Below are positions 805 to 59,858 of a stretch of 64,000 bases of DNA, piece after piece. The notes below the pieces were generated by a model that saw only the letters and a list, made by a program, of their open reading frames with translations, had not been told where the DNA came from and searched no databases. The position numbers were made by a program, and so were the translations under genes. Within the stretch, counting starts at the first letter, position 1, and each line of letters opens with the position of its first letter. This stretch comes from Prochlorococcus sp. AG-412-P08 (GTDB taxonomy: Bacteria > Cyanobacteriota > Cyanobacteriia > PCC-6307 > Cyanobiaceae), in assembly GCA_003214695.1 (NCBI GenBank), contig QCLI01000007.1, positions 1 through 64,000 on the forward strand, in the 5' to 3' direction.

Positions 805-999
805 ATGATTGATCCAACTCATTTACTTGATTTCGCCACTCAACTACCACACCCATCTGATATTGGAATCATAAAGCCTTCAGGTGGTTTTAATTTCGTA
901 GCAGCTTTATGCGGTTTAGGTGCATTTTTTGGCGCTTCTCAATTCTTCTACTACTCAGATGACTCAAGAAGGATTGACCCTTGGGCCAAAAGAGATTAA
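805..999 (+). CDS. Small membrane protein, first of a tandem paralogous pair between pcb genes
   Basis: A 64-residue protein with no recognised family. I start it at 805, not at an earlier in-frame TTG, because from this ATG it aligns without gaps to its neighbour at 1149-1316. Both share DFATQLPHPSDIG, IKPSGG and one hydrophobic Gly/Ala-rich segment ending LGAFFGASQFFYY. This copy has a charged C-terminal extension (residues 56-64) that the second lacks. One short transmembrane helix is likely. It is divergent from the first pcb gene and 150 bases before the second small gene. The position suggests a thylakoid protein tied to the Pcb antenna, but that is inference only. Confidence 0.75.
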   Translation: MIDPTHLLDFATQLPHPSDIGIIKPSGGFNFVAALCGLGAFFGASQFFYYSDDSRRIDPWAKRD

Positions 1000-1148
1000 A
1001 GGATAGTTACTTTTATTAAAAACAAAACTCACATTTTTTCTTTCCACAATCCTTCCTCAAATATCTATTAATTTAATTTTTTAGAATTTAATGAAAGGTT
1101 TAAGGAAAATTGTCACTATATATAGACAAAAACAACACCAAAAAAACA

Positions 1149-1316
1149 ATGCCTGATCTAACTCATTTAATCGATTTTGCTACACAGCTTCCTCACCCAT
1201 CTGATATTGGCCTAATCAAACCATCTGGTGGTCTTAACTTAGGAGCAGCCCTAGCAGGCCTAGGTGCATTCTTTGGTGCATCTCAATTCTTTTACTATGC
1301 CAACTTAAAAGACTAG
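1149..1316 (+). CDS. Small membrane protein, second of a tandem paralogous pair between pcb genes
   Basis: A 55-residue paralogue of the 805-999 product, sharing THL-DFATQLPHPSDIG and the GLGAFFGASQFFYY hydrophobic end. The ATG at 1149 is chosen because similarity to the neighbour begins exactly there; an upstream in-frame start would add 13 unrelated residues. No strong Shine-Dalgarno is visible. The gene ends 47 bases before a 20-bp perfect inverted repeat that terminates it and the converging pcb gene. Function unknown. It does not match any photosystem small subunit I recognise (PsaI, J, K, M; PsbX, Y). Confidence 0.78.
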   Translation: MPDLTHLIDFATQLPHPSDIGLIKPSGGLNLGAALAGLGAFFGASQFFYYANLKD

Positions 1317-2961: not shown

Positions 2962-3069
2962 ATGACCCCTGAAGCTGAGAAATTTAATGGCTGGGCAGCA
3001 ATGATTGGATTTATTGCTGCTTTTGGCGCATACGTCACTACAGGACAAATAATCCCTGGAATCTTTTAG
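2962..3069 (+). CDS. hli: High-light-inducible protein (Hli), 35 residues
   Basis: Single-helix member of the chlorophyll a/b-binding superfamily, which protects photosystems from excess light. The protein is MTPEAEKFNGWAAMIGF followed by GAYVTTGQIIPGIF. The E-x-x-N-G-x-x-A-M-x-G signature is present, with Trp where the classical Arg stands, as is usual in the very short marine forms. It is followed 10 bases later by a longer hli gene, probably in one transcript, and preceded by an HLR1-type repeat. Confidence 0.93.
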   Translation: MTPEAEKFNGWAAMIGFIAAFGAYVTTGQIIPGIF

Positions 3070-3079
3070 AAATTAAGAC

Positions 3080-3289
3080 ATGACTTCTTCAACTGAGGCT
3101 CAAGTCACTACTGAGTCAGGTAATCGCCAAAACATTTTCCCAATAGAAGCTCAACCTCGTCTTGTTGAAAACTATTCTGGATATGTTGAAGACGCTGAAA
3201 TAACGAATGGCCGATGGGCAATGATTGGATTCATTGCTTTATTAGGTGCATATATAACTACAGGTCAAATCATCCCTGGAATCTTGTAG
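3080..3289 (+). CDS. hli: High-light-inducible protein (Hli), 69 residues
   Basis: Thylakoid single-helix chlorophyll-binding stress protein. A polar N-terminal part of about 38 residues leads to AEITNGRWAMIGF, the intact Hli signature with Arg, and then GAYITTGQIIPGIL, nearly identical to the C-terminus of the upstream 35-residue Hli. The two genes are 10 bases apart in the same direction and likely form one operon under the HLR1-like site. Confidence 0.95.
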   Translation: MTSSTEAQVTTESGNRQNIFPIEAQPRLVENYSGYVEDAEITNGRWAMIGFIALLGAYITTGQIIPGIL

Positions 3290-57415: not shown

Positions 57416-58492
57416 ATGACGATAGCTGTTGGTAGCGCCCAAGATAGAGGATGGTTTGACGTCCTCGATGACTGGCTTAAGCGCGACCGATTCGTATTTG
57501 TTGGTTGGTCTGGTCTTCTTCTCTTCCCTACTGCCTATTTGGCTATCGGTGGATGGTTTTTAGGCACAACCTTCGTAACTTCCTGGTACACCCACGGTGT
57601 AGCCAGCTCCTATTTAGAAGGATGTAATTTCCTTACTGCTGCTGTTAGTACTCCTGGCGATGCCATGGGTCACAGCCTTTTGTTCCTATGGGGACCAGAG
57701 GCTCAAGGCAGTCTTGTTCGCTGGCTTCAACTAGGCGGACTATGGAATTTCGTCGTTCTTCATGGTGCATTTAGCCTGATTGGCTTCATGCTGCGTCAGT
57801 TTGAAATCGCAAGACTTGTAGGCATTAGGCCTTATAACGCTTTAGCTTTTTCTGCTGTTATAGCTGTTTTCTGTGCATGTTTCCTTATTTATCCATTAGG
57901 GCAACACAGTTTTTTCTTTGCTCCATCTTTTGGGGTTGCAGCTATTTTCCGCTTCATCTTATTTATTCAAGGCTTCCATAACATCACTTTGAATCCATTT
58001 CATATGATGGGTGTTGCAGGAATTCTTGGCGGTGCTCTTCTTTGTGCAATTCACGGGGCAACAGTTCAAAACACCCTGTATGAAGACACCAGTATTTATA
58101 CAAACGGTAAGGTTCAAAGCACTACTTTCAGAGCTTTTGACCCGACTCAGGAAGAAGAAACTTACTCCATGATTACTGCAAACAGATTTTGGAGTCAGAT
58201 CTTTGGTATTGCTTTCTCAAACAAACGTTTCCTTCACTTCTTAATGCTCTTCGTACCTGTTATGGGTATGTGGTGTGCTGCTATAGGTATCGTTGGACTA
58301 GCTCTAAACCTTAGGGCGTATGACTTCGTTAGCCAAGAAATCAGAGCAGCTGAAGACCCTGAGTTTGAAACTTTCTATACCAAAAACATACTTTTGAATG
58401 AAGGTATGAGAGCCTGGATGTCTTCTGTGGACCAACCACACGAAAATTTTGTATTCCCTGAGGAGGTACTCCCACGTGGAAACGCCCTTTAA
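57416..58492 (+). CDS. psbD: Photosystem II D2 protein
   Basis: 358 residues from ATG 57416 ([20 protein letters not shown]). Reaction-centre protein binding P680 chlorophylls, QA and non-heme iron. Five helices; His ligands seen in [33 protein letters not shown] and the C-terminal part VLPRGNAL. A frame extension of 18 codons upstream is not D2-like. The last 17 bases overlap psbC, the usual cyanobacterial psbDC arrangement. Confidence 0.98.
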
Positions 58493-59858
58493 TAGTCTTC
58501 TAAAAGCTCCTAATCAGAGTATTGATGAAACAGGATATGCCTGGTATGCAGGTAATGCTCGTTTAATCAATTTATCTGGAAAATTATTAGGAGCTCATAT
58601 TGCTCACACAGGACTAATGGTGTTCTGGGCAGGAGCAATGATGCTATACGAGGTGAGTCATTTCACCTTTGACAAGCCAATGTGGGAGCAAGGTTTAATT
58701 CTTCTTCCTCACGTTGCAATGTTTGGCTATGGCATAGGACCTGGTGGAGAAGTAGTCGACATCATGCCTTACTTCCAAGCAGGTGTGGTTCATCTAGTTT
58801 CTTCTGCAATTCTTGGATTTGGTGGTATTTATCACTCTCTAGCCGGACCTGACAAACTAGAAGAGGAGTTCCCCTTCTTCTCCACCGATTGGAGAGACAA
58901 AGATCAAATGACAACCATTCTTGGTCGTCATTTATGTGTCCTTGGATTAGGTTCATTAGCTTTTGCAATTAACTGGCAGTTCCTTGGTGGTCTTTATGAC
59001 ACATGGGCTCCAGGTGGTGGAGAGGTTCGCTTAATCACTCCAACAACAGATCCTGGAATTATCTTTGGATATCTTTTCCAAACCCCTTGGGGTGGTGGTG
59101 GAAATATGGTTGGTGTTAACTCTGTCGAGGACATTGTTGGCGGACACTATTACTTAGGAATCATTGAACTCTTAGGTGGTCACTTCCATATGCAAACAAA
59201 GCCATTTGGCTGGGCACGTAGGGCATTTATTTGGAATGGAGAAGCATTACTTAGTTATGCACTAGGTGGTTTATGTGTAGCAAGCTTCTATGCATCTACC
59301 TTTGTGTGGTTTAACAACACAGCTTATCCATCTGAATTCTATGGACCAACCAATGCTGAAGCCTCTCAGGCACAAAGTTTCACGTTCCTCGTTAGAGACC
59401 AAAGGATAGGAGCAAATGTTGGCACCACTATGGGTCCTACAGGTTTAGGAAAATACCTAATGAGATCTCCTACTGGAGAAATCATATTTGGTGGTGAAAC
59501 AATGCGTTTCTGGGATTTCCGGGGACCTTGGCTTGAACCGCTAAGAGGAGAAAATGGATTAAGTCTAGACAAGATCCAAAACGATATTCAGCCTTGGCAA
59601 GTTCGTAGAGCAGCTGAATACATGACTCATGCACCAAATGCTTCTATTAACTCTGTTGGTGGAATCATTACTGAGCCAAATGCTGTTAACTTCGTTAACT
59701 TGCGCCAATGGCTTGCATCAGCTCATTTCTTCCTAGGCTGGTTTACCTTTATTGGCCATCTTTGGCATGCTGGAAGAGCAAGAGCAGCTGCAGGTGGATT
59801 TGAGAAAGGTATTGATAGAAAAACTGAGCCAGCACTTTCTATGGCTGACTTAGATTAA
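58476..59858 (+). CDS. psbC: Photosystem II CP43 protein
   Basis: 460 residues from GTG 58476 with a strong Shine-Dalgarno GAGGAGG inside psbD; an upstream ATG at 58449 would lie deep in psbD. Opens [14 protein letters not shown]. Large lumenal loop between helices V and VI present, including the [20 protein letters not shown] segment that contributes Glu/Arg near the Mn cluster. Core chlorophyll antenna of PSII and homologue of the Pcb proteins at the other end of the window. Confidence 0.98.

Follow-up and report, generated by a model that had tools for sequence, protein, structure and literature searches.

A multicopy family of small, predicted single-span membrane proteins tied to the Pcb antenna genes of low-light Prochlorococcus

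The stretch analysed here, referred to as the window, comprises the first 64,000 nucleotides of contig QCLI01000007.1 of Prochlorococcus sp. AG-412-P08, a photosynthetic bacterium of the ocean. Near its left end, two ATG-initiated ORFs lie on the plus strand, encoding small putative membrane proteins of 64 aa (type A, positions 805-999) and 55 aa (type B, 1149-1316). A preliminary description had taken them for paralogues placed between two pcb antenna genes. Both ORFs were found intact, with 80% identity between their products across query residues 2-52 (51 residues) and with both common motifs present, and the minus-strand pcb genes at <1-591 and 1422-2480 do flank the plus-strand pair. The gene at 1422-2480 (TIGR03041, 7.5e-159) is a PcbH orthologue, 94% identical to the SS120-type gene assigned PcbH, and positions 1-591 hold the 5' part of a PcbB-type gene, cut at the contig end and 95% identical to the SS120-type gene assigned PcbB. 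These and all later class names were inferred by mapping the eight SS120 Pcb accessions listed previously (PMC2644788), in numerical order, onto the genome order of G010, an SS120-type genome with eight pcb genes; the same work distinguishes PSI-type and PSII-type Pcb groups (PMC2644788).

An intrinsic terminator hairpin (1362-1409; 20 pairs, with a T tail on the plus strand) separates the small genes from the convergent pcbH. A conserved element, GACCTTTAACTATTCC, read from the sequence, precedes both pcb genes of the window on the minus strand, at 658-673 upstream of the PcbB-type gene and at 2543-2558 upstream of pcbH. Just past pcbH, at 2962-3289, are two hli-like genes (35 and 69 aa), which are kept beside pcbH in related genomes. 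The left-hand pcb gene is apparently split between the contig of the window (C7) and contig C4 (C4 start: L003, L186), so that the assembly break falls inside the cluster of pcb and small genes. Its remainder is probably the start of C4, from the same genome, where it adjoins another small gene and another pcb gene; joining C4 to the window would give the order pcbD, small type C, pcbB, small type A, small type B, pcbH. The same order is found in G010, with one extra type D gene between pcbB and pcbH. The source genome carries two further copies of the family, each adjoining a pcb gene.

The two proteins belong to a multicopy family, of which about 130 distinct proteins were collected. Type A proteins end in ...YYSDDSKRIDPWAKRD, type B proteins are 55-56 aa long, type C proteins end in ...HWYARDCNDPEKFEGTERQKLSR or ...RFQR, and type D proteins (about 50 aa) do not have the FATQLPHPSD segment; a small intermediate group was also distinguished, together with type E, mostly of 90-106 aa with two predicted helices (overall pLDDT 64.6). 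For the one-helix proteins, AlphaFold2 run with 44 family sequences gave a short N-terminal helix at residues 5-13 and one confident helix at residues 31-51, also the position of the helix in the type A protein (block pLDDT 89-94; whole model 73.9), with the hydropathy maximum at residues 31-49. One short transmembrane helix, a trait of the low-molecular-weight photosystem subunits, is thus predicted in the small proteins, pointing to a membrane location. The proteins also have a conserved stretch, FATQLPHPSDIGLIKPSGGF; His16 is near-invariant and His6 common in the family. The two-helix members (90-106 aa; for example L121:4696-4968, L126:5737-6021, L128:5182-5466 and L133:6130-6450) occur in several low-light lineages, often as a single copy far from pcb, and may represent the ancestral form.

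The ORF pair is more than a chance occurrence, since the same arrangement recurs in many genomes and non-synonymous changes are far outweighed by synonymous ones. In a set of 159 distinct coding sequences of six types, the median pN/pS, computed for five of them, ranged from 0.06 to 0.22 by type, and the type A and type B genes of the window differ with a pS of 0.69 and a pN of 0.10. The small genes are therefore under strong purifying selection.

That the proteins fit no known small subunit of a photosystem or cytochrome complex, as previously suggested, was borne out in Pfam, NCBIfam, PHROGs and PDB sequences. No family in the first three libraries matched either small protein, and no credible sequence match was obtained in the PDB with single sequences or with profiles; identity with a known small subunit was rejected on these grounds. 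The PDB search also showed no solved Prochlorococcus Pcb supercomplex. A phage-borne origin was likewise rejected, as a pattern scan of IMG/VR contigs found no relative, and phage records gave no match for the 64-aa protein and only weak, unrelated matches for the two-helix form. Searches of the open literature, the 2000 paper on SS120 pcb apart, turned up no account of the family, whose sequences may well be present in databases as hypothetical proteins. To our knowledge, no such tiny single-span subunit of the Pcb antenna has been reported; what is new here is a group of related, very small membrane proteins with a single span, linked to that antenna.

Three known groups of proteins invite comparison. 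The low-molecular-weight photosystem subunits (PsaI/J/M/X, PsbX/Z/J and others) are also tiny proteins of photosynthetic cells with one membrane helix; however, the family described here matches no curated family or PDB chain in sequence, is multicopy and linked to pcb, and in its core form was found only in low-light Prochlorococcus-type genomes. The high-light-inducible proteins (Hli/ELIP type) are small, with one helix, and hli-like genes lie just beyond pcbH, but the Chloroa_b-bind domain is absent from both small proteins (the nearby 69-aa hli-like protein does match PF00504) and the family goes with low-light rather than high-light genomes. The Pcb/IsiA antenna proteins share the gene neighbourhood and the same lineage-wide gain and loss, but have about 350 residues, compared with one helix (two in some members) in the small family; the antenna models TIGR03041 and PF00421 matched the flanking gene only.

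Linkage to pcb extends well beyond the window. In eight complete genomes, a pcb gene lies within 1 kb of 18 of the 21 one-helix copies and of 18 of all 26 copies, compared with an expectation of 0.28 for the 26 under random placement, a contrast that indicates strength rather than a formal p-value, because the genomes, being related, are not independent samples. A pcb gene lies within 1.5 kb of 91 of 130 distinct sequences, and many of the others come from short loci where none could be seen. The linkage arises at several separate sites (the pcbD-B-H cluster, pcbE and pcbF), and arrangements differ. Under the order-based naming, the neighbours within 1.5 kb belong to classes B, H, E, D and F, and once to A; in no case is C or G, presumably the PSI-type Pcbs of SS120, the closest class. 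A PSI-type partner is thus disfavoured. Upstream of six distinct type C genes, at 45-46 bp and in the same orientation, lies a PcbE-type gene; so short a gap has little room for a separate promoter and makes co-transcription with the pcbE-type gene likely. Counting against an antenna role, pcb is distant from most of the two-helix members and from a few of the one-helix ones.

The distribution of the family points in the same direction as the linkage. Of 300 genomes of the taxonomic family, 74 had matches to the 55-aa query and 78 to the two-helix profile, including 32 of the 197 near-complete ones. The antenna model TIGR03041, which also picks up CP43, CP47 and IsiA, was run on the same 300 genomes: at least 7 matches were counted in 31 of the 32 near-complete genomes with the small family (the remaining one has 6) and in 0 of the 165 without it. 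An expanded pcb set therefore accompanies the core family in all 32 near-complete genomes that carry it and in none of the 165 others. Genera g17 and g29 do not carry the core family; we take g17 to include the high-light strains MIT9312 and MED4, and g29 to include MIT9313, so that the high-light strains and the two-pcb MIT9313-type genome are both without it. A wider presence in the phylum Cyanobacteria was rejected, as profile A1, searched against 386 of its genomes, returned only nine family genomes and one marginal match (E 9.4e-4, with a stop inside). The association first noticed at a single locus thus recurs elsewhere: homologues are widespread in many-pcb genomes, co-occur with the expanded set and cluster with pcb, as expected of a Pcb accessory subunit. 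The pcb set is reported to have expanded at the LLVII grade, to have been kept in later low-light clades and to have been lost in the high-light ancestor (PMC11559063). The core small family follows this pattern and adds a second component to that history.

Strict confinement of the whole family to low-light strains is weakened by weak profile matches in high-light genomes, which lead to proteins of 41-46 aa whose helix begins with a common [ST]I[AT]xGGFxPxAAxxG-like motif; the claim consequently holds for the core pcb-linked types only. Examples of these one-helix proteins are encoded at L190:2269-2394, L197:2472-2597, L188:2515-2652 and L191:2467-2604. Profile A5 finds them widely in g17, with E-values that are inflated and circular for high-light genomes because two of these proteins are among its seeds. 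They possibly represent distant relatives of the core family, as the common motif weakly suggests, but differ in not having the FATQLPHPSD segment, in their low copy number and in their position away from pcb, no pcb gene being found nearby in the stretches read.

Many copies outside the pcbE tandem are also preceded by conserved non-coding DNA. A promoter-like block of the 64-aa gene at 723-779 on the plus strand, GATGTAAAGTC ... TTGGCA-N16-TATCTA, aligns across diverse genomes; TTGGCA-N16-TATCTA is sigma-70-like by eye, and a consensus promoter scan did not list it. Each of five genomes has a single occurrence of the 27-bp core of the block (up to 3 mismatches allowed), in every case ahead of a small gene, and the reversed control has none. 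A second form, TTTTCAAGATGCAACAGAG, has five occurrences in three genomes, each 60-100 bp before a small gene, and also precedes unlinked paralogues 166 kb apart in G031. Such blocks, common to family members even when unlinked, were seen at 723-779 of the window and upstream of small genes in L118, L120 and L135. As both forms were found only before small genes, the family shares promoter-like signatures of its own that differ from the GACCTTTAACTATTCC element found ahead of pcb. A role as leader peptide for pcb was rejected for small genes that diverge from pcb and are closed by their own terminator. In SS120 treated with azaserine, the levels of PcbD and PcbE increase along with those of PSII and cytochrome b559 subunits (PMC5451487), which indicates that these Pcbs can be co-regulated and has no bearing on the small proteins.

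The preliminary description had proposed an accessory subunit of Pcb rings or of their attachment to PSI or PSII. Linkage to pcb and co-occurrence with the expanded pcb set uphold this idea in part, while the partner is not pcb in general and a PSI-type partner is disfavoured. In its narrower form, that the small proteins serve the PSII-type Pcb antennae (PcbB, D, E, F and H) as accessory subunits or in assembly, the proposal is the simplest and most likely of the explanations considered, and we hold it to be an even call. It is backed by the linkage at several sites, the co-occurrence, the class specificity of the neighbours, the pcbE tandem and the selection, as well as by the upstream blocks found only before small genes and the one confident helix; the preference for PSII-type over PSI-type antennae comes from the neighbour classes. 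Under this reading, they would be very small thylakoid membrane proteins, with a short N-terminal helix, the FATQLPHPSDIGLIKPSGGF stretch and one transmembrane helix, that could sit at the contacts of one Pcb subunit with another or of Pcb with the PSII core, or could alternatively act as assembly factors for PcbB, D, E, F and H, with different small paralogues matched to different Pcb paralogues. Both binding to Pcb and specificity for PSII are putative. Further points count against the antenna reading: most copies have their own promoter-like region, in the direction opposite to pcb, the possible high-light relatives are placed away from pcb, and the linkage could be partly due to duplication together with pcb. 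A more elaborate version, in which the family forms a dedicated set of linkers or attachment proteins, each paralogue matching a Pcb paralogue, for mixed, enlarged PSII-Pcb antennae, gained during antenna expansion and with its core lost as the high-light lineages arose, is tentative and rather doubtful. Low-light Prochlorococcus have up to eight Pcb antenna proteins, and we know of no settled account of how multiple Pcbs are sorted and attached to the photosystems; the small family provides concrete candidates for Pcb supercomplexes and for cryo-EM density.

The small proteins could instead be supernumerary PSII core subunits (or subunits of cytochrome b6f or NDH) of low-light strains, their position near pcb reflecting a common response to low light. 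Their size and single helix fit the low-molecular-weight photosystem subunits, most copies have a promoter-like block of their own, and an ndhS-like gene is found close to some two-helix copies. However, the close linkage to specific pcb types, the pcbE tandem at 45-46 bp and the many paralogues paralleling many pcb genes favour the antenna over a single core and make this explanation unlikely. Somewhat less probable again is a non-structural role towards Pcb, as factors for insertion or chlorophyll loading, as protease adaptors or as small regulators. Small single-helix proteins often work in this way, the small genes have a promoter-like block apart from that of pcb, and the near-invariant His16 and common His6 could touch chlorophyll; nevertheless, no known assembly factor or Hlip proved homologous, and copy number and divergence look more like those of paralogue-specific parts. 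That the linkage is purely historical, local duplications having carried along a small gene whose function is unrelated to the antenna, is improbable given the several separate pcb sites with differing arrangements and a presence that tracks pcb expansion, even though genomes of one clade do not give independent evidence of linkage and the two-helix members and high-light relatives sit elsewhere.

Elsewhere in the window, Rfam called the isiA antisense RNA IsrR (132 bits) at 58890-59073 on the minus strand. As the call lies opposite a CP43-like ORF at 58449-59858 on the plus strand, the homology of psbC and isiA, rather than a real IsrR gene, probably accounts for it.
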